A stretch of DNA of 43,224 nucleotides. It comes from an uncultured Eubacteriales bacterium. GTDB taxonomy: Bacteria > Bacillota > Clostridia > Peptostreptococcales > Anaerovoracaceae. Positions 8,583 through 13,418 of this stretch are shown here, piece after piece. The stretch is taken from the NCBI GenBank assembly GCA_902776725.1, contig CACYQX010000011.1, positions 1 to 43,224 on the forward strand, in the 5' to 3' direction. The notes below the pieces were generated by a model. That model saw nothing but the letters and a program-made list of their open reading frames with translations. It had not been told where the DNA came from and made no database searches. Each line of letters opens with the position of its first letter. Within the stretch, counting starts at the first letter, position 1. A program made the translations under genes and the position numbers.

Positions 8583-8599
8583 ACTTATCAATTAAGTTT

Positions 8600-9022
8600 T
8601 CAATCCGACAACTTATTCTTCAGAAACTCCGCAACCTCTTTTCTGTTCCTCATCTTTGCAAGCGGAGTGGCTACTCCCGTGCGGTATCCGACATACTTTG
8701 TTGAATCACCATACATATTGTAGGTGATTGTAATGGAAACGTTTCCGCGTCTGAACCACATAAGGTCATACACCTTGCCATACACCATGCTCGGGCGACT
8801 TTCTGCAGTAAAGTCAACTTCGTCCCAGAACCACTCGTTTCTTTCCTCGCCCTTTTCGGAAGCCTGAATCACCTTCTCAATACTCGCAATCAAGGATATC
8901 GTTCTCTTGAGAACACCTTCAGCCTCCGTGTAACCCATCCAACCAAGTGCTTTAACCATCTCATCAACATCACTCACATTTTTCATTTTCTTGGTTTCTC
9001 TCTTAATTTCTCTCAGTATCAT
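8600..9022 (-). CDS. Small protein of unknown function (island gene)
   Basis: I do not recognise this 140-residue protein. It has a basic, helical N-terminus (LREIKRETKKMKN), a helical middle (residues about 20-60), a WFWDEVDF segment, then likely beta strands (MVYGKVYDLMWFRR, VSITITYNMYG, KYVGYRTG) and a C-terminal helix rich in Lys/Arg. There is no signal peptide or membrane segment and no catalytic motif I can name. AAAGGAG lies five bases upstream of ATG. It is a separate transcription unit: a terminator stands between it and the DUF6994-like gene, and its own promoter carries the same palindrome as the WYL gene promoter, linking it to the island by regulation. Confidence 0.7.
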   Translation of the reverse strand: MILREIKRETKKMKNVSDVDEMVKALGWMGYTEAEGVLKRTISLIASIEKVIQASEKGEERNEWFWDEVDFTAESRPSMVYGKVYDLMWFRRGNVSITITYNMYGDSTKYVGYRTGVATPLAKMRNRKEVAEFLKNKLSD

Positions 9023-9062
9023 GTATTCTCCTTTTGTGACAGAGTTATATCGTTACAGTTGA

Positions 9063-9068
9063 ATTATA
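9063..9068 (-). promoter_or_regulatory. -10 box of the small island gene
   Basis: TATAAT on the minus strand, 41 bases upstream of the ATG at 9022. The normal -35 position is covered by the palindrome at 9080-9093, and no consensus -35 is visible. Confidence 0.55.
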
Positions 9069-9079
9069 CAAATCGCAGC

Positions 9080-9093
9080 CTCAAGAAATTGAG
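9080..9093. promoter_or_regulatory. Operator-like palindrome CTCAA-N4-TTGAG (site 1)
   Basis: CTCAAGAAATTGAG on the plus strand. It ends 11 bp upstream of the -10 box of the 8600-9022 gene, overlapping the -35 region. The same palindrome with the same 11-bp distance stands before the WYL gene (12174-12187). The plus strand continues with T7, so a short hairpin terminator is an alternative reading, but nothing is transcribed into it from the left. Confidence 0.6.
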
Positions 9094-9102
9094 TTTTTTT
9101 GA

Positions 9103-9146
9103 GAAAAAATAAAAAAACCGCCCAAATTTGTAATCCGGTGCGGTTA
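9103..9146 (-). terminator. Intrinsic terminator after the DUF6994-like gene
   Basis: On the minus strand an AACCGC...GCGGTT stem with further CC/GG pairing is followed by T7 and a T-rich run. It separates the WYL-phosphoesterase-DUF6994 unit from the small downstream gene. Confidence 0.65.
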
Positions 9147-9166
9147 TTTGCCTAAAGGTTTTAGTC

Positions 9167-10123
9167 CTATTTGCTTTGTTTAAGTATAGCTTGTATGTTG
9201 CGTGATCTTTCCCCAATTAAACTATTGATTCGATTTAGCATGTCTTCAAGTTTATCAATACTTAAGGCTTTATTTATTTCTATTTGGGGATTCTTCCCAT
9301 TTGGGCCCCATTTGACACCTTCGACCTCTCCTGTCAAAACGCTTACAGGTTTATAATGCTCATCAACAAATATATTAAAAATGAAGAAATCGATATATGT
9401 CTTGAAGTTTTTAAAATGGCCCAACCATAAATCAAGGTTGGAATTCGGTTCGTTACATCTTTTCAATATTGTGTTTTTATCTCTCTCTTCATACCAATAG
9501 TACAGTTCCCACAATGTCAAATCTACACGATCTTGAATATAGTACTGCCGATTGGAATTAATCTTTCCACCTCTTTGAGGATTATAACTATCATAGAACG
9601 GTCTTGGCCATAGAAAGGATCCTCCTATAGTTCTTGATATGGAAATCCATTCCGCCACCTTATTGATAGCCTCTTTCTTGTCCTCACTATCCATGATATA
9701 CAAGTCATAGGGATGAGATTTTTCGTTGGATGGAGCAGAAAAGCCAAACTGATCGGAGCGTAGATAAAACAATTCTATATCTTGACCACATTCATTCTTT
9801 CTCGAAACTTTTATGCCCTCATCTTCAACAAATTGGTAACTGAACTCTCCAGAGAGTTTTTTCTTTCGTTGAAATTCGTTCTCTCGTTCTTTAAGAAATA
9901 ATACTAGTTTTTCAAAAAAAGCATGATCATAGGCTTTTTTATATGTTTTATCCGGGTCACAGTAGTATCTTTGTATATCTAAAGGATCATTATCAAAATC
10001 CACGTATGAACGATTAAAGTCACAGCAATACTGCTCTTGCCAGTCCTTAAATTCCTGGCTCCCCAATTTTACTTCTTTGTTCTTCTTATCTATGACACAA
10101 TACGTGTAAAGATTGTCACTCAT
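9167..10123 (-). CDS. DUF6994-family-like protein (island gene)
   Basis: This 318-residue protein has no recognised enzyme motif. Its pattern recalls the uncharacterised DUF6994 family from memory: a DF...D.DPLDIQRYY region near residues 35-55, an FYLRSDQFGFS strand region, SISRTIGGSFLWPRP (about 163-177), a NPQRGG segment, then IQDRVDLTLWELYYWYEE (about 200-217) and a hydrophobic LGHFKNFKTYIDFFIFNIFV helix. No signal peptide is seen. ATG at 10123 is chosen because AGGAGAGGAG lies eight bases upstream; the in-frame TTG at 10153 falls inside the remnant phosphatase sequence. The start overlaps the remnant's TGA as ATGA. The gene looks more A+T-rich than the flanking core genes, suggesting transfer. 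Function unknown. Confidence 0.72.
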   Translation of the reverse strand: MSDNLYTYCVIDKKNKEVKLGSQEFKDWQEQYCCDFNRSYVDFDNDPLDIQRYYCDPDKTYKKAYDHAFFEKLVLFLKERENEFQRKKKLSGEFSYQFVEDEGIKVSRKNECGQDIELFYLRSDQFGFSAPSNEKSHPYDLYIMDSEDKKEAINKVAEWISISRTIGGSFLWPRPFYDSYNPQRGGKINSNRQYYIQDRVDLTLWELYYWYEERDKNTILKRCNEPNSNLDLWLGHFKNFKTYIDFFIFNIFVDEHYKPVSVLTGEVEGVKWGPNGKNPQIEINKALSIDKLEDMLNRINSLIGERSRNIQAILKQSK

Positions 10124-10218
10124 ACATAAAACTCCTCTCCTGTATCCAAACAAATTGCTGCTAAAGAGCCCCTCATGCTACAGCCGCAATCAATTGCGAT
10201 ATGATTATTCTTTCTAAT
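10120..10218 (-). pseudogene. Orphan C-terminus of a PPP-type metallophosphoesterase
   Basis: Between the phosphoesterase stop and the DUF6994-like start one frame reads 32 codons and then TGA: it contains NNHIAIDCGC, then SMRGSLAAIC and LDTGEEFYV. This matches the closing strands of PPP-type Ser/Thr or diadenosine-tetraphosphate phosphatases (consensus like HIAIDCGCvfGGrLaalcLDtgEefyv). A TAG stands just before it in frame, and it is not in the frame of the intact upstream gene, whose own end (GHFHED...LYDEMIIID) looks complete. The TGA overlaps the next ATG as ATGA, an intact coupling junction. I infer a deletion or replacement that left only the tail. The region has no start codon and no evidence of independent translation. 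Confidence 0.65.
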
Positions 10219-10903
10219 CTATAATAATCATCTCATCATATAGGCAGAAAAAGGTATCTTCCACTTCCGTATCTTCGTGGAAGTGACCAAAGTACCATGC
10301 GGTAAATTCTGTATTGTCGGCCACTCGTTGAAGGTATTGTCGAAGTTCAACTTCGTCATCAGACAGTTCACCATATCCCATCGCGGCAACAACTTCTCGC
10401 GGACCTGTGTGACTTAAAATATAGTCTACCTGAAAATCAACCCTTTCAAGATTATTCCAGCCTTCCTCATATTCTTCTCTTGTAGGTATTTCCTCTGGAA
10501 ACCACGTAATTCCTTCGGCACGTAAATTCTTGTCTATGCTATGTGCTCCACCAAAAGTAAAAAATCGTGTACCATCTATATCAAATACCTGTCCACGCAT
10601 TAAATGTATAATCTTGCTCTCAACAAAATGTACCTTGCCCCCATTCCATATATCCACACCATAGGAATTCAATTGTTCGAAGTTTTCGTGATTTCCATCT
10701 ACGAAGAGAGTCGTTACTGGCAGTTCTCTGAGAACTCTGCGTGCTTCCGCTTCGTCAGAAGTCGAAAAACCACACACACCTACATCACCACAAATTATTA
10801 AATAATCGTCTGATGTATATTCATTCTCATGCTCATTAAAAAATAGCACAATCTTCCTAAGATCAATTGTTCCATGAGTATCCCCAGAAATAATAAAACT
10901 CAT
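10214..10903 (-). CDS. Calcineurin-like metallophosphoesterase (island gene)
   Basis: The 229-residue protein has all metal-binding motifs of the calcineurin-like superfamily: GDTHG (Asp8, His10), ICGDVG (Asp40), DGNHE (Asn71, His72), LSHTGP (His165) and GHFHED (His207, His209). A GGAHSIDKNLR segment (118-128) is typical of a subgroup found in mobile and accessory loci. Substrate could be a nucleotide, a phosphoprotein or nucleic acid; the sequence does not decide. It starts within the WYL gene's stop (ATGA overlap at 10900-10903), so the two are translationally coupled. A remnant of a different phosphatase follows it. Confidence 0.9.
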   Translation of the reverse strand: MSFIISGDTHGTIDLRKIVLFFNEHENEYTSDDYLIICGDVGVCGFSTSDEAEARRVLRELPVTTLFVDGNHENFEQLNSYGVDIWNGGKVHFVESKIIHLMRGQVFDIDGTRFFTFGGAHSIDKNLRAEGITWFPEEIPTREEYEEGWNNLERVDFQVDYILSHTGPREVVAAMGYGELSDDEVELRQYLQRVADNTEFTAWYFGHFHEDTEVEDTFFCLYDEMIIID

Positions 10904-12120
10904 AAACTACGCCCCTTATCTGAATCTTTCATATTTCTTACATCGTATTTATCGTATAATTCCGCCACTCTTTCCCCAATCTTGTCTCTCAACGCTTTAG
11001 GTTCAAGCACTTCTACTCTATCGCTATATTGCATTGCAAAGTTAAACATGCCGAAGGGCGAGCATTTGATCATAACTATATCGTAGTTTGAATCTTCTTT
11101 GTCCACTCTCTGGAAAAGATAATCTTCACCAAAAGCATCATGAATGAATGTATAGTTTGGTTTTATCGGATTTCCTTCTTCATCCTTTTCATTTAAAACT
11201 CTCAGTGTGATCCATTGTGGATTATCGTATGACATATTGTAATGAGTAAGTGGGTATTCGGGTTCCCAATTTTGCGGAAGGTACTTAACCTCTGACTTTT
11301 TGATGTGTTTAATTCCATTCTTTTTTTCACTTCTCTCGGGTATAGAAACATCACTCATAAGATCCACGCGGAGTATGTATGCCGTTTTATATTTGTCGTT
11401 TGCCGCCAAAAGATAGTATCGACCTCTGTCGGCCACCAAATAATATGGGCTTGCGATTCTGAAATAGTCACCCGCAGGCACAAGATTACCCTTGTTATCA
11501 TATCCGTTAAACTTATACTGAATCTTTACACCACCATCTATTGCCTGCTGAATAATGGCGAGGTTTTCTTTAATCGTCTTTCTGTCGTGATTGCCGCTAG
11601 ATTTAACCTTACATATATGACGCGGACTCTGCTTATAATACTTAGAAGTATGTTTCGTCTCCAGAGTATCTACCAATCGCTCCGCTCTTTCTACCTCCAT
11701 TGTCGGCGAGAATCGAATTGCCTCAACAATGGCATCTATATCTTCGTAAGAAAACTCGTGGTTATAATATAGGTTCTTTATTTGCAAAGAGTCTTTCTCA
11801 TGTTCCTTAATTAAATAGTCATCAAAAACTATCTTCCAATCATCCTGATTTATGGGATGCTCATCCTCATCACAGTTTAGCGCATTCGCAAGATGCACTA
11901 TAAGATCATGCAAGGTCGTTGGATTACCTATCTTTACTTTGCTGTATTCAAATGCCGCCCTAATGTCTTCAGGATTAACCTTGTGCTCACTATCGGTGTT
12001 TTCTTTTAAATACTTTAACAGCGCCACAACCTTTTTCTGCTGGCTGCCTGAGCTTCTAGACCTTGGTTTTCCCGATTCTTCCTGCTTGTTGCCTGTGCTT
12101 TTAGTTTTTATTTCTGACAT
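10900..12120 (-). CDS. WYL-domain transcriptional regulator (island regulator)
   Basis: The 406-residue protein starts with a disordered Lys/Ser/Gly-rich segment (1-28), then a winged-helix-like N-terminal region (QQKKVVALLKYLKENT onward), a helical linker, a WYL domain (about 205-265, with YFRIASPYYLVADRGRYYLL) and a WCX-like C-terminal domain (about 295-390). WYL proteins bind nucleic acid or nucleotide ligands and control defence or DNA-damage loci (PafBC, BrxR and CapW groups). AAAGGAG stands five bases before ATG at 12120. It heads the island operon; its own promoter carries the palindrome found also before the 9022 gene, so autoregulation is likely (inference). Confidence 0.88.
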   Translation of the reverse strand: MSEIKTKSTGNKQEESGKPRSRSSGSQQKKVVALLKYLKENTDSEHKVNPEDIRAAFEYSKVKIGNPTTLHDLIVHLANALNCDEDEHPINQDDWKIVFDDYLIKEHEKDSLQIKNLYYNHEFSYEDIDAIVEAIRFSPTMEVERAERLVDTLETKHTSKYYKQSPRHICKVKSSGNHDRKTIKENLAIIQQAIDGGVKIQYKFNGYDNKGNLVPAGDYFRIASPYYLVADRGRYYLLAANDKYKTAYILRVDLMSDVSIPERSEKKNGIKHIKKSEVKYLPQNWEPEYPLTHYNMSYDNPQWITLRVLNEKDEEGNPIKPNYTFIHDAFGEDYLFQRVDKEDSNYDIVMIKCSPFGMFNFAMQYSDRVEVLEPKALRDKIGERVAELYDKYDVRNMKDSDKGRSL

Positions 12121-12156
12121 AAATACTCCTTTAAATATACCTCGTACTCTGTATTT

Positions 12157-12165
12157 AGTATACCA
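12157..12165 (-). promoter_or_regulatory. Extended -10 promoter of the WYL operon
   Basis: TGG-TATACT on the minus strand, 37 bases upstream of the WYL ATG. There is no consensus -35; the palindrome 12174-12187 occupies that position. Confidence 0.6.
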
Positions 12166-12173
12166 TAATCCCC

Positions 12174-12187
12174 CTCAATTTTTTGAG
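12174..12187. promoter_or_regulatory. Operator-like palindrome CTCAA-N4-TTGAG (site 2)
   Basis: CTCAATTTTTTGAG, with both 5-bp arms identical to site 1 at 9080-9093. It ends 11 bp upstream of the WYL -10 box, exactly the spacing seen at site 1. Confidence 0.62.
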
Positions 12188-12208
12188 TTTTTAAGAATCC
12201 CTACACTA

Positions 12209-12237
12209 TTGAGTGAAAGCCGTCTCAATGGTATAAT
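12209..12237 (+). promoter_or_regulatory. Promoter of ychF
   Basis: TTGAGT (12209-12214), 17-base spacer ending in TGG, TATAAT (12232-12237). An imperfect relation to the island operators exists: TTGAG at 12209 and CTCAA at 12224 are inverted, with 10 bases between. Transcription would start near 12244, giving a leader of about 80 bases. Confidence 0.7.
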
Positions 12238-12249
12238 AGGCCCGTTACA

Positions 12250-12270
12250 AAATGGCGTAAAAATGGCGTA
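12250..12270 (+). repeat. Tandem direct repeat AAATGGCGTA in the ychF leader
   Basis: AAATGGCGTA occurs at 12250-12259 and 12261-12270, an 11-base period, in the predicted 5' leader of ychF. Function unknown; no ribosome site is associated. Confidence 0.6.
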
Positions 12271-12323
12271 AAATGAAACCACCAAACTCTACTGCCATTG
12301 AAATCAAAGGAGATTTAGCATAA

Positions 12324-13418
12324 ATGAAACTAGGAATCGTTGGACTTCCAAACGTGGGAAAGAGCACCCTCTTTAACGCGATAACCAAGGCCGGAGCCGA
12401 GGCCGCAAACTATCCCTTCTGCACCATTGAGCCGAATGTCGGTGTAGTTGCGGTTCCGGACGAGCGCGTGGACAAGCTCCATGAGGTTTATAATTCCAAA
12501 AAGACGACTCATACGACGATTGAGTTCTGCGATATCGCAGGTCTCGTAAAGGGCGCGAGCAAAGGCGAAGGACTCGGAAACAAATTCCTGGGCCATATCC
12601 GTGAGGTTGCCGCAGTCGTCCACGTTGTGAGAGGATTTGAGAATGACAATATCGTCCACGTTTCGGGTCGCATAGATCCCCTAGACGACATTGAAACCAT
12701 CAATACGGAACTCATCCTCGCCGATATGGAAGTACTTGAAAAGAGAATCACCAAGGCGACCAAGAATCTAAAGGGCGACAAGAGTCTCCAGAAGGAAATT
12801 GATATACTGAACAGAATCAACGACCACCTCGCCCAAGGTCTTTCCGCGAGATCCATGGACCTTTCGGAAGACGAAGCCGAGTTCGTAAAGACGCTTGACC
12901 TGCTCTCATATAAACCCGTAATCTATGTCGTTAACGTATCCGAGGAAGACGCAAAGGACGACGGCAGCAACGAGAACGTAAAGAAGGTCCGCGAATTCGC
13001 AGCTACCGAAGGCGCAGAAGTCGTGGTAATCTGCGCGGAGATCGAGCAGGAAATCTCGGAGCTTGACCCCGAAGAAAAAGCGATGTTCCTTGAGGACCTC
13101 GGAGTATCCGAGTCGGGACTTGATAAGCTCGTAAAGGCATCCTATAAACTGCTTAACCTAATCTCCTTCTTAACCGCGGGAGAAGACGAATGCCGCGCAT
13201 GGACGATTAAGGACGGAACCAAGGCCCCGCAGGCCGCAGGAAAGATTCATACGGACTTTGAAAGAGGCTTTATAAGAGCCGAAACCATCGCCTACGACAA
13301 ACTTATGGAATGCGAAGGAAGTCTCGCCAAAGCGCGCGAAAAGGGCCTCATCCGCTCCGAAGGAAAGGAATACGTCGTAAAGGACGGAGACGTAATGAAC
13401 TTCCTGTTCAACGTATAA
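12324..13418 (+). CDS. ychF: Ribosome-binding ATPase YchF/OLA1
   Basis: YchF is an Obg-family P-loop protein that hydrolyses ATP and associates with ribosomes. The 364 residues include Walker A GLPNVGKST (7-15), the switch II segment DIAGLVKGASKGEGLGN, an NVSE motif (in place of NKxD, the basis for ATP preference), a coiled-coil arm and the C-terminal TGS domain ending in FLFNV. AAAGGAG lies 11 bases upstream of ATG. It has its own strong promoter, divergent from the WYL operon, and a strong terminator. Confidence 0.96.
   Translation: MKLGIVGLPNVGKSTLFNAITKAGAEAANYPFCTIEPNVGVVAVPDERVDKLHEVYNSKKTTHTTIEFCDIAGLVKGASKGEGLGNKFLGHIREVAAVVHVVRGFENDNIVHVSGRIDPLDDIETINTELILADMEVLEKRITKATKNLKGDKSLQKEIDILNRINDHLAQGLSARSMDLSEDEAEFVKTLDLLSYKPVIYVVNVSEEDAKDDGSNENVKKVREFAATEGAEVVVICAEIEQEISELDPEEKAMFLEDLGVSESGLDKLVKASYKLLNLISFLTAGEDECRAWTIKDGTKAPQAAGKIHTDFERGFIRAETIAYDKLMECEGSLAKAREKGLIRSEGKEYVVKDGDVMNFLFNV

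Follow-up and report, generated by a model that had tools for sequence, protein, structure and literature searches.

WYL-domain regulators include the activators DriD of Caulobacter crescentus, PafBC and the mycobacterial SiwR, and those of defence islands include repressors such as BrxR. As described in the accessible part of PMC12340889, DriD sites overlap the -35 region, lie at a single distance from the -10 box and go with -35 matches of 1-2 bases out of 6. The driD promoter is bidirectional, and DriD switches on the divergent operon there without activating its own gene. According to the available text of PMC11804915, PafBC places itself between the DNA and domain 4 of sigma. Here, we describe an island WYL regulator encoded in a 43,224-nucleotide stretch of DNA (contig CACYQX010000011.1, hereafter the window) from an uncultured Eubacteriales bacterium of the Anaerovoracaceae, together with a palindrome, CTCAA-N4-TTGAG, found in two promoters of the island. 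We propose that this palindrome is probably the operator of the WYL regulator, through which the protein would activate targets such as a small gene located beyond its own operon. Taken separately, binding of the palindrome by the WYL protein is predicted from sequence comparisons with good confidence, and activation at promoters other than those of the WYL gene appears fairly probable by analogy with the activators above.

Two promoters of the island carry the same palindrome at the same distance from the -10 box

The palindrome occurs twice in the window, both times on the minus strand. Site 1 (9080-9093, CTCAAGAAATTGAG) belongs to the promoter of a small gene coding for 140 amino acids (8600-9022, minus strand). 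Site 2 (12174-12187, CTCAATTTTTTGAG) belongs to the promoter of an operon, the first gene of which encodes the 406-residue WYL regulator (10900-12120, minus strand). The arms of the two sites are the same and the four central bases are different. As reported in the initial annotation, with exact positions, each site stands 11 bp from a -10 box, namely TATAAT at 9063-9068 for the small gene and TATACT at 12157-12162 for the WYL operon (both on the minus strand). When the -10 hexamer is numbered -12 to -7, the palindrome spans -37 to -24, of which the downstream half-site, TTGAG, takes up -28 to -24. The composite pattern made of the palindrome, 11 bp and TATAAT is matched without mismatch at site 1 and with one mismatch at site 2. 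Two copies of the palindrome in the window are to be compared with 0.03 expected, and none of 100 shuffles contained two or more. The two sites are located between predicted minus-strand genes. Plus-strand open frames of 135 and 140 codons overlap them and were taken as spurious.

The arrangement is found in an orthologous island

Searches with the WYL protein covered 296 genomes of the family, 393 of the order, 391 of the class, 398 of the phylum and 52 further genomes of the family (overlapping sets), and scans also covered a collection of 84,980 species. A single close orthologue was found, 53% identical, in the genome G041. Beyond the window genome and G041, all matches that passed the cut-offs in the order, class, phylum and further family genomes were either distant or limited to the WYL core. 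No orthologue was found in viral contigs, and relatives on plasmids and phages reached 22-26% identity at most. The assemblies are 85% complete for the window genome (1.45 Mb) and 92% for G041.

The G041 assembly contains four exact copies of the palindrome. Three of them are located between predicted genes, in a 7.1-kb stretch that ends next to the WYL gene (island coordinates are those of contig L034), and the fourth lies inside a 493-codon frame. Site A (L034:3302-3315) stands 11 bp before the TATAAT box of a gene for 140 amino acids placed behind an operon. Site B (L034:6564-6577) stands 11 bp before the TATAAT box of an operon composed of a gene for 181 amino acids, a DUF6994-like gene and a PcfJ-like gene. 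Site C (L034:10378-10391) lies between the divergent genes for the WYL protein and an AAA ATPase, and TATCAT stands 11 bp away on the ATPase side. A near copy, site D (L034:12506-12519, TTGGG for TTGAG), was discovered by searching for the composite pattern; it is located 11 bp before a TATAAT box upstream of a gene with weak zinc-finger similarity, which is listed with 140 amino acids and for which ATG at 12587, behind AAAGGAG, is a likelier start. Open frames of 55-189 codons running over the three exact island palindromes were taken as spurious. The arrangement is therefore conserved at the orthologous locus, with three exact palindromes and a near one, each preceding a transcription unit and lying, on one side, 11 bp from a -10 box. 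No significant similarity was detected between the proteins encoded after site 1 and after site A.

At site 1, a third CTCAA half-site forms a direct repeat 10 bp further upstream (9089-9103, CTCAAAAAAACTCAA, minus strand). No exact third CTCAA half-site was seen by eye at the other sites.

Clustering and spacing distinguish the island sites

On its own, the palindrome is at background in the window genome and in the genus. A genome scan for stray copies, as suggested in the initial annotation, found one in the rest of the window assembly, inside an open frame of 1004 codons filling the fetched 3-kb stretch; the reversed-pattern control also counts three in this assembly. Among 15 genomes, the palindrome is present 0-4 times per genome, as compared to 0-7 for the reversed control. 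Such numbers are what chance palindromes in AT-rich DNA would give. Because the reversed control also reaches three, the signal resides in the clustering and the spacing. Assuming three copies per genome, a rough Poisson estimate puts the chance of such clustering at about 2e-5 for the window and 2e-7 for G041, before spacing is counted. With the orthologous island in addition, chance becomes very unlikely, and we give this explanation a negligible probability.

With respect to spacing, a -10 box with at least 5 of the 6 bases of TATAAT is located exactly 11 bp away on one side of all six sites of the two islands, that is on 6 of 12 sides. Given the composition of the sites, the rough chance of such an agreement at one of 31 offsets is 6e-6, and 7e-5 if site D is left out (5 of 10 sides). 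At 0-1 mismatch, the composite pattern was found at the island sites only, in both assemblies (two in the window genome, four in G041). Totals up to three mismatches in the two assemblies were 7+5 and 15+9, sites included, versus 9+7 and 8+7 for the reversed pattern. In its exact form, the composite gave four matches in 349 genomes of the family (one in the window genome, two in G041 and one in G900) and the reversed control gave one. The G900 match lies in a 142-codon open frame near a contig end, in a genome without close WYL orthologue, and was not retained. The composite pattern was also present in 28 stretches of viral contigs, where a profile search of the open frames found no relative of this WYL family; these matches were taken as chance.

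The confinement of the composite to the two islands at up to one mismatch also bears on the possibility that another factor, either a repressor or an alternative sigma factor, binds the palindrome, the WYL gene being a passenger. In favour of this possibility, binding by the WYL protein is itself a prediction. However, sites outside the islands would be expected for a host factor, the -10 boxes are of housekeeping type, and among the four proteins of the window island, the WYL protein and, weakly, the DUF6994 protein are alone in having matches in the L034 stretch. Binding by another factor is therefore improbable.

The inverted repeats could also be read as plus-strand RNA elements, either weak hairpins or terminators. 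T-runs indeed follow both window sites on that strand and the corresponding stretches fold at -8.5 and -4.1 kcal/mol; the values for sites A and B of G041 are -8.3 and -12.8 kcal/mol, and any palindrome would fold in this way. However, sites A and B retain the palindrome and its spacing without a T-run directly after, and nothing in a terminator calls for a constant 11 bp from a -10 box of the opposite strand. This reading, which is very improbable, was rejected for these reasons.

Activation or repression

The seven promoters of the two islands have poor -35 elements. Their best matches, with spacers of 15-19 bp, are 2-3 out of 6, whereas the random mean is 3.0. Hence the earlier statement that both window promoters are without a consensus -35 is borne out. 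An extended -10 (TGn) was found in both WYL-gene promoters, with TGG preceding TATACT in the window, and in none of the five others, including that of the small gene. Overall, both a -35 and an extended -10 are missing from five of the seven promoters.

In the mechanism that we propose, a homodimer of the WYL protein would sit over the -35 position, its helix-turn-helix (HTH) domains bound to the palindrome at -37 to -24. The bound dimer would hold the housekeeping RNA polymerase on promoters having a good -10 and no -35. It would act as an activator at targets such as the small gene, probably once the WYL domain has bound a nucleic-acid ligand, as DriD and PafBC lead us to suppose. The regulator's own promoters, with their extended -10, would probably fire unaided, the site there being neutral or used for feedback. 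The presence of an extended -10 at WYL-gene promoters only fits a regulator made unaided and targets needing help.

The WYL protein may instead bind the palindrome as a repressor that blocks sigma at the -35 region until released by a ligand that is produced upon infection or damage. The co-occurrence and spacing that argue for binding are the same in this case. Moreover, BrxR represses a defence island and its own promoter, as reported in the accessible text of PMC9122601, and the extended -10 of the WYL promoters could work without a -35. On the other hand, the BrxR box is placed, in the same source, just downstream of the -10 and not over the -35; five promoters lacking both -35 and extended -10 would have little unaided activity to repress; and a spacing of 11 bp at six sites exceeds what a blocker needs. 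Repression thus appears possible but rather doubtful. Of the two modes left open in the initial annotation, an activator replacing the -35 becomes the likelier one at promoters other than those of the WYL gene, and a repressor the less likely. The proposal that the palindrome is the operator of the WYL protein and controls both units is supported, at the level of sequence, for the close clade represented by the two islands.

In addition to the background frequency of the bare palindrome and to the predicted nature of WYL binding, several points weigh against activation from a WYL operator. A repressor placed over the -35 could likewise show a fixed spacing. The 11-bp rule is broken on the WYL side of G041 site C, where 9 bp separate the palindrome from TATAAT. 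On the plus side of site B, facing the gene at L034:6722-7741, the first -10-like hexamer occurs at 23 bp and none at 11 bp. The promoters of sites 1 and A have ATTTGTATAATTCAA in common and thus possibly some common ancestry. The structure model of the WYL protein is poor, with a mean predicted local distance difference test score (pLDDT) of 54. Finally, the motif is absent from the fetched flanks of seven distant WYL relatives (L048, L049, L050, L051, L084, L085 and L086; 22-40% identical to the window protein), with up to one mismatch allowed in the palindrome and one in the -10; two of these contigs, L048 and L049, are short (6.5 and 6.0 kb). The predicted operator would thus be tied to the close WYL clade, that is to two islands and one independent close orthologue.

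The WYL protein and its distant relatives

The WYL domain of the window regulator is recognized by Pfam (PF13280, 26.3 bits for a cut-off of 21.8), and a WCX extension is matched weakly (PF25583, 21.9 bits, under the cut-off of 23.9). At the N-terminus, HTH-like helices are predicted at residues 25-41, 50-58 and 67-81, followed by two strands, in a region where pLDDT is mostly below 50. In a Foldseek search with the model, the first 14 rows were PafBC or DriD chains, ahead of BrxR and CapW. Template modelling scores by query length were just 0.18-0.26, and this ranking gives weak support to the proposed mechanism. Comparison with solved structures using phmmer and profile searches gave nothing useful.

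Two of the distant relatives, L085:7630-9129 (G619) and L086:8029-9504 (G769), have an additional N-terminus of about 80 residues resembling sigma-70 region 2. Their genomes belong to one genus, within the same class as the window bacterium, and their WYL proteins are about 28% identical to that of the window. Using whole proteins, the Pfam sigma region 2 match has an E value of 0.0055 in G619, and no match was obtained at 0.05 in G769. When just the N-terminal pieces were compared, a match at E of at most 1 was obtained for both (best 0.00019), under Pfam's cut-off. A profile of the two N-terminal sequences matched seven solved structures at E of at most 0.5, all of them sigma factors (best E 0.001); with a single N-terminal sequence, ten sigma-factor chains and one unrelated protein were obtained at E of at most 1. 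A fusion of sigma region 2 to a WYL protein is therefore probable in G619 and G769, as judged from these matches. No further fusion was found in viral contigs, and plasmid matches cover only part of the protein, without the sigma-like N-terminus. No palindrome common to the promoters of the two fusion genes was seen by eye. We found no published report of such a fusion: the fusion list in the accessible part of PMC4012209 names none and the available text of PMC12839542 is silent.

The probable fusion suggests that a WYL-linked HTH can replace sigma region 4 in the wider family. One may speculate, with considerable doubt, that the WYL clade does the work of sigma region 4 by reading the palindrome at its constant distance from the -10, which would let the housekeeping polymerase use promoters devoid of a -35, the fusion perhaps being a one-chain, ligand-gated sigma factor.

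Among the other distant relatives, the palindromes upstream of the L048 and L049 WYL genes were inspected. The one preceding the L048 operon (7-bp arms, N4 gap, about 10 bp from TATAAT) has the appearance of an ordinary terminator and was left out of the count.

Genes and setting of the island

On the minus strand, the island genes are arranged in the order WYL, metallophosphoesterase, DUF6994, hairpin with U-run, site 1 and the small gene. The start of the calcineurin-like metallophosphoesterase gene (10214-10903, minus strand, 229 amino acids) overlaps the WYL stop codon, and the DUF6994 gene (9167-10153, minus strand; 318 or 328 amino acids depending on the start) is the last of the operon. 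A probable intrinsic terminator, a stem followed by a U-run, is located at about 9108-9145 on the minus strand; the small gene indeed follows the operon terminator, as first annotated. This hairpin was absent from the list of a simple terminator scan, perhaps owing to a bulge in its stem. The small protein has no match in Pfam, PADLOC or NCBIfam. On the plus strand, a promoter-like TTGAGT-17-TATAAT preceded by TG (12209-12237) would serve ychF; it holds TTGAG and CTCAA half-sites in reversed order.

The WYL island (window 8583-12323) stands between lgt and ychF. Eleven other genomes of the genus gave a ychF locus. In 10 of them lgt lies upstream of ychF, the distance between match ends being at most about 105 bp in nine and about 620 bp in G267; in G248, no lgt was found up to 1.5 kb from ychF. 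Because lgt and ychF are close neighbours in nine of these 11 genomes, the block of about 3.7 kb that includes the palindromes looks like an insertion, with approximate ends. No integrase match in Pfam was obtained among the genes of the block. With respect to phage defence systems, PADLOC gave, besides WYL, only candidate or partial matches, PDC-S10 and PDC-M19B in the window and IetA and PDC-M03A among others in G041. In the latter, the gene at L034:6722-7741, which is divergent from the site B operon, resembles the candidate PDC-M03A; we take it to be HipA-like.

DUF6994-like genes were observed near this WYL family at five loci (the window, L034, L048, L049 and L084), three of them with a metallophosphoesterase. 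The DUF6994-like gene adjoins the WYL gene or lies within 0.6 kb of it in L048, L049 and L084, and is 3.4 kb away in L034; the DUF6994 matches in L034 and L049 are under Pfam's cut-off. A metallophosphoesterase also follows in L049 and L084. The set of WYL, DUF6994 and metallophosphoesterase genes is possibly an uncharacterised stress or defence cassette.

Comparison with known WYL regulators

Overall, the palindrome very probably serves as operator for a regulator of known kind; its sequence is new and the regulon small. An island WYL regulator of the Bacillota thereby gains a predicted operator and a limited set of targets, with a geometry by which activation and repression could be told apart. 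If activation via the -35 position is true, the DriD/PafBC way of working would extend to a small genomic island, in a bacterium of another phylum than Caulobacter crescentus, the host of DriD. The probable sigma-WYL fusion of distant relatives would offer a natural test of the engagement of WYL proteins with the polymerase.

According to the accessible parts of the articles cited in this section, one of the close likenesses is with DriD, a WYL-WCX activator with a winged HTH. As here, its palindrome lies over the -35, at a fixed distance from the -10, in promoters with a very poor -35 (PMC12340889). G041 site C, which is 11 bp from the -10 box of the ATPase gene and 9 bp from that of the WYL gene, resembles the driD promoter in that one region serves both the regulator gene and a divergent operon. 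However, the DriD operator has another consensus, ATACGAC-N7-GTCGTAT (PMC12340889), and DriD controls a DNA-damage regulon across the chromosome, as compared to a small island here; activation was shown for DriD and is predicted here.

SiwR, also an activator, binds as a homodimer to a palindrome between -35 and -10, and the -26 region is needed for activation; it differs by a 19-bp imperfect palindrome, and one operon was studied (PMC10693628). In the case of PafBC, the housekeeping polymerase uses the promoters by sigma adaptation, with a contact at -26 or -24 (PMC11804915, PMC12340889, PMC10693628). PafBC differs in being a heterodimer of which one HTH touches the promoter, and it needs the polymerase to bind its site (PMC12340889). 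BrxR and CapW are WYL regulators tied to phage defence, and BrxR, which recognizes inverted repeats, regulates its own promoter (PMC9122601). BrxR represses from a box just downstream of the -10, whereas the island palindrome is located 11 bp upstream of it. By analogy, the position of the palindrome, the poor -35 and the fixed spacing place the island promoters closer to those of DriD, SiwR and PafBC than to the BrxR site.

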